Below, one piece after another: positions 3,051-11,210 of a DNA stretch of 64,000 nucleotides. The number at the start of each line of letters is the position of its first letter. Position 1 is the first letter of the stretch. The stretch is from Spirochaetota bacterium (GTDB lineage Bacteria; Spirochaetota; Brachyspiria; Brachyspirales; JACRPF01): NCBI GenBank assembly GCA_016214035.1, contig JACRPF010000007.1:62001-126000 (forward strand). Reading direction: 5' to 3'. The notes under the pieces were generated by a model. The model was not told where the DNA came from and did no database searches. It saw nothing but the letters and a program-made list of their open reading frames with translations. The position numbers were made by a program, and so were the translations under genes.

Positions 3051-3074
3051 GTATCCCGAACAAATCCAATTGAT

Positions 3075-3215
3075 TCGGGCGGTCGTCCGGGATTTCCGGA
3101 CGGTTGCCCGGAAGCGCCGGGCGATTGCCCGGAGACTCCGGACGACCGGGGAGAAGACCGGGCGATCGTCCGGAAGTCCCGGGCGGTTGCCCGTATGTTC
3201 TGGATGATCGGGGAT
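3075..3215. repeat. Tandem array of about seven 21-bp quasi-palindromic units
   Basis: A 16-bp quasi-palindrome of form CCGGRCGRTYGYCCGG recurs with 5-nt spacers at 3075, 3096, 3117, 3138, 3158, 3179 and 3200. The period is 21 bp, with one 20-bp step at unit 4. The best copies are CCGGGCGATTGCCCGG (3117-3132) and CCGGGCGATCGTCCGG (3158-3173). The outer units are more diverged. Each unit can fold as a hairpin on either strand. Confidence 0.7.
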
Positions 3216-3367
3216 TTTAAATGTCCGGTGGGAATTCCTGGAAAACACGCAAAATTGAATAAAAATACGATGCCGGGGTATTGTATATGCGCTATCCGGA
3301 AGAATATTGGCACAAATGTATGATTGGGGTAATCATCTGCGGTTTGCCGGAACTTTACAATATTAAA

Positions 3368-3395
3368 TTGACAATTATATCCGGAGCATTATAAT
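3368..3395 (+). promoter_or_regulatory. Strong consensus promoter heading the AT-rich island
   Basis: TTGACA (3368-3373) and TATAAT (3390-3395) are both perfect consensus boxes, spaced by 16 bp. The promoter lies 33 bp upstream of a 53-codon ORF and about 220 bp upstream of the mrr-like gene. It is the only clear promoter for the three-gene island. Confidence 0.75.
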
Positions 3396-3427
3396 TATGA
3401 AATCAATCTCAGGGGATATCTGATAAT

Positions 3428-3589
3428 ATGAACGTTGCTATACTGAATGAATCGGGTGTATCGGTAATAACACAGGCTATTCAATCTTCTTATATCAAAC
3501 CGGAATCCGAGCTTGTACGAATGTCGTCTATTCCGCCATTAAGCCCTATTAACGAATTGCGTCTATTTGTAGTTGTGCGAAGTGCATAA
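3428..3589 (+). CDS. Short ORF downstream of the island promoter (hypothetical, 53 aa)
   Basis: ATG 3428 to TAA 3589 encodes MNVAILNESGVSVITQ through LRLFVVVRSA. An AGGGGATAT stretch lies about 12 nt upstream as a weak ribosome site. No family is recognised and there is no membrane segment. It may be a genuine small protein, a leader ORF, or a remnant. The strong promoter just upstream is the main reason for listing it. Confidence 0.3.
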   Translation: MNVAILNESGVSVITQAIQSSYIKPESELVRMSSIPPLSPINELRLFVVVRSA

Positions 3590-3617
3590 CGATATCAAAT
3601 ATTATGCGGAGTAATAA

Positions 3618-4490
3618 ATGACATATAAAGGCCCTAAATTCATGCAGTATTGCTTACCTATAATCAATATATTAAAAGATCTTGGCGGGTCTGGTAATCC
3701 ATCAGAAGTCACTGATTTGGTTATTGAAAGATGCAATATCTCAGATGAAGATCAAGCAGTAACAAATAAAAATGGTGGTTCAAAGGTTAAAAACCAAATT
3801 GCTTGGGCAAGGTTTTATTTGGTTAAGTTTGGGATATTAGAAAGTGACTCCTATGGAATATGGTCAATTGATAAAAAATATTTGACAACAGATTTTACAA
3901 ATGAAGACCTTTTAATTCGATTTAAACAATTTCATAAAGAGTATCATAAATTACGAAAAGGAAATAGTGAACAAGAAGATGCTCATGAAGAAGATTCTGA
4001 AGATGATTCACCAGAAGAAGTATCAGTAAAAAATTATCGTGAAGAATTATTTAACATTATTCAAACAATTAGCCCAAATGGATTTGAAAGACTTTGTCAA
4101 AAATTATTAAGAGCAGCTGGTTTTGAAAATGTAAATGTAACAGGTCGATCAAATGATGGCGGTATTGATGGTCATGGAATTGTTAAGGTTAATGCATTTG
4201 TTAATTTTAAAGTTGTTTTTCAATGCAAACGATATAAAGGCAGTGTAAGCCCTTCAATTGTTAGGGATTTCCGTGGCTCAATGGATGGTAGAGCTGATAA
4301 AGGAATTATAATAACAACGGGTACATTTACAAGTGAAGCAAAAAAAGAAGCACAAAGGGAAGGTGCAATTCCAATAGAGTTAGTCGATGGTGAAAGTATG
4401 ATAAATCTATTTGAAAAACTGTTATTTGGATTAAAAGAAATAAAAACATATGCAGTTGATTATTCGTTCTTTGAAGAGTTTAAATTATGA
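3618..4490 (+). CDS. mrr: Mrr-family restriction endonuclease (type IV-like)
   Basis: A 290-residue protein, close to the length of E. coli Mrr. Residues about 5-95 match the Mrr N-terminal winged-helix domain. An acidic linker follows (about 118-133, rich in E and D). Residues about 140-275 are the Mrr catalytic domain, with GFERLCQKLL, GGIDG (181-185) and FQCKRYK (201-207); these supply the D-QxK motif of the PD-(D/E)XK nuclease fold. Mrr enzymes cut DNA with foreign methylation, so a defence role is expected. GC content is far lower than in backbone genes, suggesting transfer. The stop is followed within 20 bp by an attC-like structure. Confidence 0.88.
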   Translation: MTYKGPKFMQYCLPIINILKDLGGSGNPSEVTDLVIERCNISDEDQAVTNKNGGSKVKNQIAWARFYLVKFGILESDSYGIWSIDKKYLTTDFTNEDLLIRFKQFHKEYHKLRKGNSEQEDAHEEDSEDDSPEEVSVKNYREELFNIIQTISPNGFERLCQKLLRAAGFENVNVTGRSNDGGIDGHGIVKVNAFVNFKVVFQCKRYKGSVSPSIVRDFRGSMDGRADKGIIITTGTFTSEAKKEAQREGAIPIELVDGESMINLFEKLLFGLKEIKTYAVDYSFFEEFKL

Positions 4491-4500
4491 TATCGCTGGC

Positions 4501-4604
4501 CACTTCGAACAACATCGGGTTCGCGACATGCCCCACTGCCGCTGCTCGCGAAGCTCGCCGATTCTTGGCATTTCTGCACATCGCAAACACCGAGAACGTT
4601 AGGC
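4501..4604 (+). other. attC-like recombination site 1 (integron cassette boundary)
   Basis: AACATCGGGTTCGCGA (4511-4526) pairs imperfectly, with single-base bulges, with TCGCAAACACCGAGAACGTT (4581-4600). The site ends in the core GTTAGGC (4598-4604), which matches the GTTRRRY consensus. Extrahelical bases in a long imperfect palindrome are characteristic of attC sites. The left inverse core (CGAACAAC) is degenerate. The next gene starts 38 nt after the core. Confidence 0.5.
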
Positions 4605-4641
4605 ACAAATTGACAATACAAACCATGGATATGAAAAATAT

Positions 4642-6060
4642 ATGAAGAAGTTACTTTCTGTTGGCTATGAAATACCTGGGCATTCAGACTGTTATATCAA
4701 CTTTCGTTCGGACTCATCGTTATTAGATGCTGATGTTGTTATTTTCTTACCTGATATTTCAAATTATAAAAATGATTCATGGAATGCTTATTATCAAAAT
4801 AAAAGATTCTTAAATGAACATTCATCATTTGAACTTGTTGAAGATATAAATCATTGGAAACGAGAATTGAAAAGTTTACTTGATGTTGGCAAAACAGTTT
4901 TTATAGTATTTTCTGGATATGAAGAAGTATTTATTCATACTGGCCGGAAAGAATATTCTGGTACTGGAAGAAATCAAAAAGTAACAAATCTTGTTAGTGA
5001 AATCAATAATTACTCAATCTTTCCGATCAATGTCCCTACCATAATACCCAAATCTGGTAATGAAATCAAATGTTGTGGGAATCCATATTTCACTACATTT
5101 TGGTCGGAATTTAAAGATTATTTATCTTATGAGTCTTATTTTGATGGTGATATACCAGTTCCACTTTTTATCACAAAAAATGGAAACAAACCAGTCGGTG
5201 GTCTATTTAAAATAAATAAAGGAAATATAATAATTCTCCCGTCAATACAATATGATAAAAAAGAATTTACTTCTAAGAATGGGAAGAAAATTATTTGGAA
5301 TACTAAAGGATTAGCTTGGGGTAATCGTTTAGTTAATTCATTATTAGAAATTGATAAATCTTTGGTAGCCAATAATGAATTTACTCCTCCTCCTGATTGG
5401 GTGAATTCTGATGATTTTCAAACTGGACCAGAAAGAACAATTCAGAGAAAAATTATCGAAATTGAAAAAAGCATCGACATTCTAATAAACGATAGATCAC
5501 AACAATATATAAGTTTATCAAACGAACAAATATTTAAAGGGCTATTGTATGAGAAAGGCAAGGCTTTAGAATTCTCAGTTATAGCTTCCCTTAGAGTTTT
5601 AGGCTATACAGCAGAGAATTACGATGACGGTATCGACGAATTTGATCAGATAATAACCTCTCCTGAAGGTGACAGATTTTTAGGCGAATCTGAAGGAAAA
5701 GATAATTCAGCAATTAATATTGATAAATTTAGACAATTAGAAAACAATATCCAACAAGATTTTACCAAAGAAAATGTAACATTACATGCTATTGGAATTT
5801 TATTTGGCAATGGGTATAGGTTATTATCACCAGAAAAAAGAGAAACTCAATTTACCGATAAATGTAGAACCAACGCTAAACGATTAAATGTTATATTGAT
5901 ACAAACAATGGATCTGTTTTCTGTAATAAAATATCTAAAATATAATAACGATGATATTTTTAAAAAGAAATGCAGAGAGGCAATTATAAATTCAAAAGGA
6001 GAAATTGTCATATTTCCGAAACCCGAAGTTAGTTTGCATTCTGCACCTAACACGGCGTAA
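4642..6060 (+). CDS. Hypothetical protein with putative PD-(D/E)XK-like C-terminal motif
   Basis: A 472-residue AT-rich protein of no recognised family. The first 270 residues look globular and mixed alpha/beta (DADVVIFLPDISNY, GKTVFIVFSGYEE). Residues about 305-360 read GKALEFSVIASLRVLGY, then GIDEFDQ, then FLGESEGKD. The spacing E-D-ExEGK suggests a restriction-like nuclease core; this is inference from motif only. The protein ends ...SAPNTA with its stop codon inside an attC-like site, as integron cassette products often do. It lies between two such sites, in the same orientation as the mrr-like gene, and has no promoter of its own. Confidence 0.6.
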   Translation: MKKLLSVGYEIPGHSDCYINFRSDSSLLDADVVIFLPDISNYKNDSWNAYYQNKRFLNEHSSFELVEDINHWKRELKSLLDVGKTVFIVFSGYEEVFIHTGRKEYSGTGRNQKVTNLVSEINNYSIFPINVPTIIPKSGNEIKCCGNPYFTTFWSEFKDYLSYESYFDGDIPVPLFITKNGNKPVGGLFKINKGNIIILPSIQYDKKEFTSKNGKKIIWNTKGLAWGNRLVNSLLEIDKSLVANNEFTPPPDWVNSDDFQTGPERTIQRKIIEIEKSIDILINDRSQQYISLSNEQIFKGLLYEKGKALEFSVIASLRVLGYTAENYDDGIDEFDQIITSPEGDRFLGESEGKDNSAINIDKFRQLENNIQQDFTKENVTLHAIGILFGNGYRLLSPEKRETQFTDKCRTNAKRLNVILIQTMDLFSVIKYLKYNNDDIFKKKCREAIINSKGEIVIFPKPEVSLHSAPNTA

Positions 6061-6107
6061 TGTGCGCGGCGCCACCTATCGGTCGCATGCGCCGGAAACG
6101 CTAGACA
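6044..6107 (+). other. attC-like recombination site 2 (integron cassette boundary)
   Basis: The site starts with ACCTAAC (6045-6051), a perfect RYYYAAC inverse core, and ends with GCTAGAC (6100-6106), one mismatch from GTTRRRY. The arms around ACGGCG and CGCCGG pair imperfectly, and the centre contains GGCGCC. Length is about 63 bp, within the usual attC range. The upstream gene's stop codon (6058-6060) lies inside it and the next gene starts 25 nt beyond the core. Confidence 0.55.
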
Positions 6108-6131
6108 ACATGCAAAAAGGCCTACGAAATA

Positions 6132-7142
6132 ATGAGTATTGAAATGGCACATCGATTCTTTGAAAAATATGAGGAGCTATTACAGAAAGCCGATTTTATT
6201 AAACTTTGCAAGAGACTTTCTTTTCAGTTAAACGGAGTTCTTGGGCGAGATTTAAATGAGGTGGAATCCGTTAAACAATGGGTTGATATTTTTAATAGGA
6301 CTCCACATTTGAACATCCCTGGGTATGAAATCAGTTTTAATTCTGTTTTTATACATGGTTTTAATCACTCAGATAAAGGCTCTTATCCTTCTGGTGTCGA
6401 GTTTGACTACTTAAATAACTTAACAGAAAAAAGAGAGCTTGCTGATATTATTTTTACAACCTCCTTCTATGAAAATAATAACAAGATACTTGAGAAAATA
6501 TCTTTTAATCAAGCAAAATGGGGAGCAATCAAAAGGACAACTTCGAGTTGGGAGATAGATAAAGAACAATTATTCTTACTTACAAACTTTCCTAGATTTT
6601 CAGGAGCAAATGGTTCATTGATTCCTAATACTGATTTCAATATTGAAGATTTTTCTAGATGTCTTGGCTCCTATGGATTAATGACAACAGAGAACTTTAT
6701 ATATTTATCAGCAAGGAATTTACAACAACTGATAGGCGGAAAAAAGACAATAAACCTCAATGACTTTAAGAGCATCCCTTCAATAAACGCACATCCAGAC
6801 TACCATAGATATTATCACTATATACCCTCAATATTTTCAAAAACGTTTTGCAATAACACATATGAATTTATTACTGATTATTTAAGTGGTAGAATTGGAG
6901 AAGTAATTATTGGAGTGTTTTTACAAAATGACAGTGCAAGATTTCTTTTTCATAATATTTTGTCCGCCATTAAGAATTTAACTAACAGTCAAGATTTTAC
7001 GCGTGATTTTACTGAGTTTCTAAACAAATATGGAGACTTTAACGAAAATGACAATTTGACTAATGTCGAATATAAATTTTCCGAGAATTTGGGAATTGTT
7101 CAACTGAAGATTAAGATTGATAAAGAAAAAGGCATCGAATAA
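6132..7142 (+). CDS. Hypothetical protein, nuclease-like ELAD...QAK motif
   Basis: A 336-residue AT-rich protein of no recognised family. Residues about 100-130 contain ELADIIFTTSF followed by KISFNQAKW. An acidic D strand followed by QxK is the signature of many PD-(D/E)XK-type proteins, so a DNA-related or defence role is plausible but unproven. No signal peptide or membrane segment is seen. It is the last of three AT-rich same-strand genes and starts 25 nt after an attC-like core, consistent with a gene cassette. Confidence 0.6.
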   Translation: MSIEMAHRFFEKYEELLQKADFIKLCKRLSFQLNGVLGRDLNEVESVKQWVDIFNRTPHLNIPGYEISFNSVFIHGFNHSDKGSYPSGVEFDYLNNLTEKRELADIIFTTSFYENNNKILEKISFNQAKWGAIKRTTSSWEIDKEQLFLLTNFPRFSGANGSLIPNTDFNIEDFSRCLGSYGLMTTENFIYLSARNLQQLIGGKKTINLNDFKSIPSINAHPDYHRYYHYIPSIFSKTFCNNTYEFITDYLSGRIGEVIIGVFLQNDSARFLFHNILSAIKNLTNSQDFTRDFTEFLNKYGDFNENDNLTNVEYKFSENLGIVQLKIKIDKEKGIE

Positions 7143-7210: not shown

Positions 7211-7254
7211 CTACACCAGCGCTTTCAATTCCATTATAACTTAATCTGATCTTC
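7211..7254. repeat. Degenerate duplicate of the degT 3' end (left copy)
   Basis: This 44-bp segment matches the 45-bp 3' end of the DegT gene (7910-7954). The first 22 bp are identical and the rest is diverged with a one-base indel. It brackets the RAYT gene on the left, and the RAYT reading frame ends inside it (EDQIKL, versus EDQDTV in DegT). Confidence 0.65.
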
Positions 7255-7845
7255 GATTCCATATCGTATATACCCATCACCATCTTGCGTTCCCATGCGC
7301 TCACACCATCGCCGCGGGTTATCTTCGATGTATTGCCGCACACGATTACATTCATCGTCGTCACGGATGATATGATCGTAAAAGCGCGGTTGCCAGCAGA
7401 ATTCTATTGCATGTATCCGGGCGAATTGCGTAACCGCCGATTTGAATCCGCGGATGATCGACGCGAGATTTTTCGATTGCGGTGAAAATGAATTGACCGC
7501 AACGCCGTGGGTATCGGTAGGCGCGCGATGCGTCGCGCGCCTACCGATACCCACGGCTACATTATTATAGCTGTTTTCACCGATGATGATAATCCCGTGT
7601 ATGTGATCGGGCATCAACACGAATGCATCCAGCGTGATATTCATGTCGGGACGTATAGCCGGCGTTTTATGCCATTCATCCCGTGTAACACTGCCGATAT
7701 CCGACGGAATCATTTTACCATCGACAATCTCGCCGAAATACGGCATTCGCTGTCCGGTGCAGATGGTAACAAAATATGCGCCGGGCTGTGAATAATCGTA
7801 TCCCGCAAGCCGTGCAGAACCGTTTCTGTATTTCCCGTTACTCAC
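7234..7845 (-). CDS. REP-associated tyrosine transposase (RAYT, IS200/Y1-like)
   Basis: A 203-residue Y1 transposase-like protein. It has the N-terminal YDYSQPGAYFVTICT start typical of RAYTs, the HUH motif in MPDHIHGIII, and the C-terminal FYDHIIRDDDE...YIEDNPRRW segment carrying the likely catalytic Tyr. RAYTs are domesticated single-copy transposases that act on REP hairpins. Between the HUH motif and the Tyr region an in-frame 54-bp near-perfect palindrome (7504-7557) encodes GIGRRATHRAPTDT. The gene is bracketed by duplicated degT 3'-end sequence. It appears intact. Confidence 0.85.
   Translation of the reverse strand: MSNGKYRNGSARLAGYDYSQPGAYFVTICTGQRMPYFGEIVDGKMIPSDIGSVTRDEWHKTPAIRPDMNITLDAFVLMPDHIHGIIIIGENSYNNVAVGIGRRATHRAPTDTHGVAVNSFSPQSKNLASIIRGFKSAVTQFARIHAIEFCWQPRFYDHIIRDDDECNRVRQYIEDNPRRWCERMGTQDGDGYIRYGIEDQIKL
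7504..7557. repeat. Perfect 25-bp-arm palindrome inside the RAYT gene
   Basis: The arms at 7504-7528 and 7533-7557 are exact inverted copies with a 4-nt loop (TGCG). The stem centre is GC-rich (GTAGGCGCGCGA). Its length is divisible by three and it leaves the transposase frame open, so it looks like an inserted mobile palindrome tolerated as a protein linker. Confidence 0.75.
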
Positions 7846-10551: not shown

Positions 10552-10965
10552 CTAAACGGCGCTTTTTATGTATTCTTCTGCATTCATTATAATTAAATCT
10601 GATTTTTTATAATCCTGTTTGTTTCTTGTAATTATAACTTTAATCTTATTGTTTTTTGCCGTATATATTTGAATTGCGTCTTCGAAATCATTAAAATCTG
10701 ATTCAGAAGCACTGCATATCTCGTTTTTCCCTACATTCAATATCCGTATGATCTGCTGCAGCTTCTTAATACCGCTCATCGCTTTTTCGTGATTTGTATA
10801 TTTTCGTAGCACGTAATACACATTTGAGAATACTAAGCTGGAAGTATATCCCTCTATATCACCGACCTCGATCTTTGTAAATAATTGTTCGATGAATTGA
10901 ACATCCGGCTCTCGATTTAATAAAAGATCAAGAATCACATCCGAGTCAAGAAATACTTTATTCAT
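10552..10965 (-). CDS. PIN-domain ribonuclease toxin (VapC-like)
   Basis: A 137-residue PIN protein. The N-terminal acidic residues lie in FLDSDVILDLLLNREP, and later acidic positions fall in SDFNDFEDAIQIY and near ITRNKQDY. PIN toxins cleave RNA using Mg2+. It overlaps the upstream antitoxin gene by 4 bp (ATGA-type coupling). Codon use is more AT-rich than in the flanking genes, consistent with a mobile toxin-antitoxin cassette. Confidence 0.87.
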   Translation of the reverse strand: MNKVFLDSDVILDLLLNREPDVQFIEQLFTKIEVGDIEGYTSSLVFSNVYYVLRKYTNHEKAMSGIKKLQQIIRILNVGKNEICSASESDFNDFEDAIQIYTAKNNKIKVIITRNKQDYKKSDLIIMNAEEYIKSAV

Positions 10966-11210
10966 AGATATTTCTTTGACAATCTTTCTGCAATAATATC
11001 CTTATAGTCAGATGAGATATTGCCGCCCTTTACCATCCCTTTTAATTGTCTTGTGATCGGCGCAGATTTGTGATTATTCATTCTCTTATTATCTAAGGAT
11101 TTCAGGTAATTTTCAACGATTGAAGATATGCTCGTGTGTTTTTTCTTTGAGTATTCCTTCGCATGAGTAATGACTTCTTTATCGAGAAGCAACGTCAATT
11201 TTGACTGCAT
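10962..11210 (-). CDS. Antitoxin of the PIN toxin (ribbon-helix-helix-like)
   Basis: An 82-residue basic protein. The start KLTLLLDKEVITHAKEYSKK and the helix SISSIVENYLKSL match the ribbon-helix-helix-like DUF6364 type of antitoxin that precedes PIN toxins. Its C-terminal half would bind the toxin. It is the first gene of the pair. The promoter just upstream overlaps a perfect palindrome, as expected for autorepression. Confidence 0.8.
   Translation of the reverse strand: MQSKLTLLLDKEVITHAKEYSKKKHTSISSIVENYLKSLDNKRMNNHKSAPITRQLKGMVKGGNISSDYKDIIAERLSKKYL

Follow-up and report, generated by a model that had tools for sequence, protein, structure and literature searches.

A 64,000-nucleotide stretch of the genome of a Spirochaetota bacterium (assembly GCA_016214035.1, contig JACRPF010000007.1, positions 62,001 to 126,000; hereafter the window, in whose numbering positions are given) carries at 3365-7142 an AT-rich locus that is very probably an integron-like capture platform which lost its recombinase. 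Two cassettes, each bounded by imperfect inverted repeats of about 25 nt, follow an attI-like site, which is itself preceded by the promoter and first codons of an integrase gene. That the unit of open reading frame (ORF) 1 with site 1 and the unit of ORF2 with site 2 are integron-type cassettes is supported by an attC covariance model from which the window site was left out, by repeats that pair each cassette head with its own tail, by the attI-like site and by the promoter. A preliminary description, made from the sequence alone, had proposed three cassettes; two could be demonstrated, whereas ORF3 is followed by neither an attC site nor an inverted repeat. The same description had considered a cluster of attC sites lacking an integrase (CALIN) or the end of a chromosomal integron. 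Its cassettes were recovered, but because the locus keeps its own attI together with a co-directional integrase promoter and start, it is better described as a capture platform with a lost integrase than as stray attC sites, and the related recombinases belong to a family lacking the I2 insertion, which sets the locus apart from canonical integrons. The features, all on the plus strand, are as follows.

3365-3474, +, relic of an integrase gene: promoter, leader and first ~15 codons (MNVAILNESGVSVIT against MNIAQQNSRGVSITH), from a local DNA alignment to positions 1939-2048 of locus L052 on contig C22
3368-3395, +, promoter read from the sequence: TTGACA 3368-3373, 16 nt, TATAAT 3390-3395
3428-3589, +, fused ORF of 53 amino acids (aa): integrase start joined to attI, running through the crossover to a stop codon 28 nt short of ORF1
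3517-3571, +, attI-like site: a pair of direct repeats 35 bp apart, ACGAATgTCGTCTATT (-55) and ACGAATTgCGTCTATTTGTA (-20), upstream of the crossover
3572-3599, +, head of cassette 1, with the G^TT crossover at 3572: complementary to 4486-4513 (21/26 nt in local alignment; best of 11 tails)
3618-4490, +, ORF1, 290 aa, Mrr-type restriction endonuclease (Pfam and PADLOC), cargo of cassette 1
4486-4604, +, tail and attC-like site 1: AAC 4511-4513, 1-nt spacer, L arms, 4-nt spacer, GTTAGGC 4598-4604
4598-4625, +, head of cassette 2: complementary, with gaps, to 6024-6051 (best of 11 tails, score 11.0)
4642-6060, +, ORF2, 472 aa, unnamed family, cassette 2; stop codon inside site 2
6024-6106, +, tail and degenerate attC-like site 2: ACCTAAC 6045-6051, core GCTAGAC 6100-6106
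6132-7142, +, ORF3, 336 aa, function unassigned, possible third cassette with a lost attC

Cassette boundaries and attC-like sites

Cassette ends were assessed on the principle that, in a cassette formed by attC recombination, the head following G^TT complements the bases preceding AAC in its own attC, a rule first seen in the canonical array on contig C16 of the same genome. Across 11 cassettes in five islands, the own tail was the best partner of every head and the own head the best partner of every tail (11/11), and none of 20,000 permutations paired as well. The complements measure 20-28 nt, as in GTTGTGCGAAGTGCATAACGATATCA (3572-3597) against TGATATCGCTGGCCACTTCGAACAAC (4488-4513), cassette 2 being the weakest pair. 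The test gave no signal for cassette 2 of contig C6 or on the 3' side of ORF3. Both window cassettes, like the others, thereby have the appearance of circularly permuted units, each with a head complementary to its own attC.

Two attC-like sites had been described. Site 1 (4499-4611, modelled on the minus strand) was recovered with 70.8 bits (E=2.3e-17) by a covariance model trained without it, the alignment of which was fitted using an earlier model, which may have let a little information leak in through the structure; it was the sole match of this model across the window. Its inner arms were not equalled in any of 500 shuffles. The terminal GTTAGGC reported for it is in place and agrees with GTTRRRY, and its R'' sequence, GAACAAC, departs from RYYYAAC. 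An unfiltered covariance model search of 1.5 kb gave site 2 a weak score (10.1 bits, E=0.039). Of the two cores attributed to it, the inverse core ACCTAAC agrees with RYYYAAC, whereas the supposed GTTRRRY-like core reads GCTAGAC and departs from that consensus. The geometry of site 2 as read by eye, AAC-A-CGGCG...CGCCG-GAAAC-GCT with spacers of 1 and 5 nt, is family-like; its inner arms were no better than shuffles, and the stop codon of ORF2 falls inside it as had been noted. Folding energies of both sites, on either strand, were also no better than those of shuffles (bottom-strand z -0.48 and 0.05), so that the palindromes alone are no proof and the other tests were needed.

Searching the genome itself (5.21 Mb, 22 contigs) at the DNA level with site 1 returned related stretches on contigs C2, C6 and C22, and a covariance model built from the relatives of site 1 added one further site, on C19; a truncated copy on C22 scored weakly. 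The family is confined to AT-rich, strand-uniform islands on C2, C6, C11, C19 and C22, the backbone being G+C-rich. Most of 15 sites from five genomes, window site 1 included, share the geometry AAC-1 nt-L arm...L arm-4/5 nt-GTT. The preliminary description had held that the lack of any attC covariance match, together with conservation of the arrangement among vertically related genomes, would speak against cassettes; a match was obtained with the home-made covariance model, which gave no convincing site in any of the order's 30 other genomes searched. By definition a CALIN has no IntI nearby and two or more attC sites above the IntegronFinder threshold; under the home-made model the window has one strong site and one weak one.

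The attI-like site and the integrase relic

Copies of the attI-like site in the window, C22 and C2 share 85-88% identity over 66-69 bp, and each stands before the first cassette of its island. Elsewhere in the genome nothing exceeded chance; on C19, half a site with one of the two repeats is present. The reading frame through attI is likewise open in C22 and C2. In the species collection, from which the record of this genome was possibly left out, the attI pattern had no match; a single viral match, located inside a phage coding gene, was dismissed as chance.

The predicted TTGACA-16-TATAAT promoter is present and lies within 3365-3474, a segment that aligns with the beginning of the C22 integrase remnant, promoter included, with a score of 75 that was reached in 0/1000 shuffles. 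This remnant is a tyrosine recombinase of 157 aa, internally deleted, located just upstream of attI and reading toward it. TTGACA-16-TATNNT is also found upstream of attI in C2 and C19; C2 additionally retains the last integrase codons, ATGCAGGTGAATGTATGA, and its promoter is TTGACA-16-TATACT. Because 3365-3474 matches the integrase start and an attI-like site follows, the promoter at 3368-3395 most plausibly belonged to an integrase gene, now deleted, which read toward attI; the promoter now reads into the cassettes. The earlier statement that the window contains no integrase accordingly applies to an intact gene, its promoter and first codons being still recognisable. An attI of the kind that stands beside an integrase gene can be recognised from sequence at the window, C22 and C2, in part at C19, and also after the intact integrases of relatives. 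Degenerate GC-rich repeats of ~18 bp occur just upstream of two of the integrase relics, at window 3060-3210 and L052 1840-1940.

Intact relatives and the recombinase family

The N-terminal part of the C22 remnant was used to pick full-length recombinases (type B) in other genomes of the phylum. Downstream of intact type-B integrase genes, attI-like palindromes follow directly on the stop codon in the same orientation, and AT-rich genes lie beyond. The head/tail test covered the 16 loci in which the sequence continues for 1 kb or more beyond the integrase, and eight scored 14.4-20.2, with the head 70-137 bp after the integrase stop, against a maximum of 13.4 in 150 random regions; this count includes L101, exactly at 14.4, and the scripted count without it is seven. 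Runs of two or three consecutive cassettes occur in genomes G051, G099 and G211. The 3' side of the integrase was nearer to the contig end in 21/25 drafts (p=0.0009), which is expected if a repetitive array follows the integrase. Two Chryseobacterium plasmids have integrase and attI in common and diverge at GTT; a Pontibacter plasmid yielded no head/tail pairs.

None of the type-B proteins has the IntI-specific insertion of ~31-40 aa (I2 helix), which is present in IntI1, in two plasmid IntIs (Thiodictyon, Proteus) and in the IntI encoded on C16. Scanned type-B integrases scored 214-227 bits with TIGR02249, below the cut-off of 265, and for the intact ones the best NCBIfam model was NF040815 (216-248 bits, cut-off 220). 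Since its type-B relatives are devoid of I2, the cognate recombinase of the window was probably not a canonical IntI; the window itself keeps the gene start only. Phylogenetically, IntI forms one clade (100/100), and type B and IntI group together apart from the Xer proteins of the genome (97/97, long branches). The placement of IntI relative to type B is not settled (85/52), and no claim is made that IntI arose from type B.

The proposed genome search for intI and further attC sites gave both, the former on C16, where the canonical IntI (375 bits to TIGR02249) is associated with an array of its own, whose attC sites belong to another family. A strict RYYYAAC/GTTRRRY scan detected the C16 array and missed the type-B sites. 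The C16 IntI was considered as the cognate enzyme of the window cassettes and rejected on account of this difference. Its locus (L051 8808-13414, at the end of C16) comprises a divergent IntI and at least five attC sites of 60 bp with cognate head/tail matches of 11-12 nt, the array running off the contig end.

Further observations concern the islands of the same genome. On C22, L052 2592-5818 is a cassette with a two-gene DUF4297-HerA anti-phage pair and a 25-nt inverted repeat with one mismatch, and at L052 6420-6445 and 6888-6905 the attC hairpin seems to have been deleted (AACACGGTGTTCG) with the head/tail repeats kept, forming fossil joints. On C19 (L080 8150-10880, minus strand), the cassettes carry an AAA ATPase, a nuclease-like gene and a start resembling cytidine deaminase, and the crossover is mutated to GATGTC.

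Cargo genes and neighbourhood

The three plus-strand ORFs have the AT-rich composition noted earlier (28-38% G+C, backbone 50-60%). ORF1, previously called mrr-like, is an Mrr type IV restriction protein by its catalytic (PF04471 Mrr_cat, 109 bits, 1.6e-31) and N-terminal (Mrr_N, 8e-18) domains, and is classified as mREase_IV by PADLOC; methyl-directed activity is predicted. ORF2 had zero matches in Pfam, PADLOC and NCBIfam, and its C-terminal ESEGK resembles a PD-(D/E)XK nuclease motif. Homologues of ORF2 were found in 3/392 other sampled genomes and, at 36%, on Enterobacter plasmids, and none in the species collection. On one such plasmid, from Enterobacter hormaechei (L087), the homologue adjoins a tyrosine recombinase and insertion sequences; the majority of plasmids with an ORF2 homologue are predicted to be conjugative. 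ORF3 has a single weak homologue among the 392 genomes and none in viral contigs or plasmids. An Rfam scan returned tRNA only.

Directly after the island, at 7234-7845 on the minus strand, lies a gene resembling a repetitive extragenic palindrome (REP)-associated tyrosine transposase, near a short GC-rich palindrome (~7520-7550). An AT-rich pair resembling a PIN toxin and a DUF6364 antitoxin is located at 10552-11210 (minus strand) within the G+C-rich backbone.

Proposed origin and alternative explanations

In its original state the locus would have carried, on a single strand, a promoter followed by an integrase gene, attI and the cassettes. A type-B recombinase may have cut attI and the folded attC at G^TT, joining circular cassettes to attI; each head would complement its own tail because a single folded attC in the circle would have given rise to both. 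The long R stem may provide an arm that is double-stranded throughout, by analogy with the CTX phage hairpin used by XerC. An internal deletion would then have taken all of the integrase gene except the promoter and the first ~15 codons, bringing attI and the cassettes immediately downstream of what had been the integrase promoter and ending cassette shuffling. The Mrr gene and ORF2, which may serve in defence, would now be fixed and are probably transcribed from this promoter. At least two other islands (C22 and C2) keep integrase parts with different deletion end points, so that the integrase seems to have been lost more than once, in separate events.

Several results weigh against this account. 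At C2 the integrase start is matched weakly (14/1000 shuffles as good), and at C19 not at all. No full-length type-B integrase was found in the genome, although one could be missing from the assembly (98.2% complete, 22 contigs), and current activity is therefore unlikely. Half of the type-B loci (8/16) showed no cassette by the head/tail test, and the reversed-sequence null reached 14.6 once in 120, which makes the weakest relative (14.4) marginal by itself. Within the window, site 2 and ORF3 are weak, and recombination is deduced from sequence.

An integrase acting in trans on dispersed attI landing pads, which would then not be fossils of separate integrons, is unlikely but the most serious competitor: similar attI sites occur in four islands with at most one sizeable integrase remnant, and promoters are kept in three. 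The integrase pieces upstream of attI at the window and C22, and possibly C2, nevertheless have differing deletion end points, which fits separate integrons, and an intact helper integrase was not found in the genome. Insertion in trans by the canonical IntI of C16, which would make the locus a plain CALIN at a secondary site, is improbable. CALINs are common (PMC9024848), this genome does contain a canonical IntI with its array, and insertion at G^TT is common to both systems; yet the C16 attC sites (60 bp, AACAAGCGGCTGGAGCCG...) are of a different family, the islands have their own repeated attI, unlike the sequence adjoining the C16 IntI, and the C22 remnant falls in a non-IntI family, the same attC geometry accompanying non-IntI integrases in other genomes.

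Every gene unit lies between inverted repeats of 20-28 nt, as it would if the units were small transposons resembling miniature inverted-repeat transposable elements. This is very improbable, because the repeat sequences vary from one cassette to another and find their best match only inside their own cassette, and because successive units are joined head to tail through a single common attC-like hairpin, the series starting at a conserved attI. Least credible of all is an ordinary defence island with chance palindromes: the Mrr gene, further defence-type genes and the unremarkable folding energies would suit it, but it is contradicted by the leave-one-out covariance match, the 11/11 head/tail pairing and an attI repeated in the genome. 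The lost-recombinase platform thus remains the preferred reading of the window. The broader proposal, somewhat favoured, is that of a second kind of integron, in which I2-less Xer-like tyrosine recombinases capture cassettes at attI by means of attC sites with an R stem of ~20-25 nt and a bulge of 1/4-5 nt, in several genera of this phylum and, through the Chryseobacterium attI boundary, in Bacteroidota.

Comparison with known systems

With canonical integrons and CALINs (PMC9024848) the locus shares attI, a promoter, promoterless co-oriented cassettes, the G^TT crossover and, with cores that agree in part, attC-like hairpin sites with R and L arms. It differs in that the type-B integrases lack I2, the attC spacers measure 1 nt and 4-5 nt, and head/tail complementarity extends to ~25 nt. 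In canonical integrons this complementarity usually corresponds to the 7-bp core. In the chromosomal integrons of Treponema the genes run in the same direction, and T. phagedenis has lost intI while retaining attC sites and cassettes (PMC3607928). That order, an integrase reading toward attI and co-directional with the cassettes, can be recognised from sequence in the C22 remnant, the intact relatives and, as far as preserved, the window relic. Treponema integrons, whatever the I2 status of their IntI, were found by similarity to T. denticola intI (PMC3607928); here, several dispersed platforms occur in one genome, attI is retained and the integrase relatives are without I2.

The accepted view is that integron integrases came to recombine single-stranded attC hairpins by acquiring the I2 helix (PMC7790495, PMC4792948), the insertion having moved these enzymes toward single-strand recombination (PMC7790495). 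XerCD-dependent integration of CTX phage (PMC7790495), in which an I2-less Xer-type recombinase acts on a folded single-stranded hairpin mimicking a double-stranded site, offers a model for type B; it uses the host dif site and, unlike type B, involves no cassettes and no dedicated integrase or attI. The NCBIfam entry NF040815, 'site-specific tyrosine recombinase/integron integrase' (XerA-like), is silent on attI, attC and cassettes, and type B has an extra N-terminal region. I2-less integron platforms were not described in the literature searched, which did not extend to preprints and most subscription journals, and priority is not established.

If the broader proposal is correct, the I2-less class would be a living parallel to, or an intermediate toward, canonical integrons. 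Natural arrays adjoining I2-less integrases make the I2-helix idea directly testable, and the results suggest that integron searches keyed on canonical IntI would miss a class of platforms. The window would illustrate how such a platform freezes, through deletion of its integrase, into fixed, promoter-driven accessory genes.

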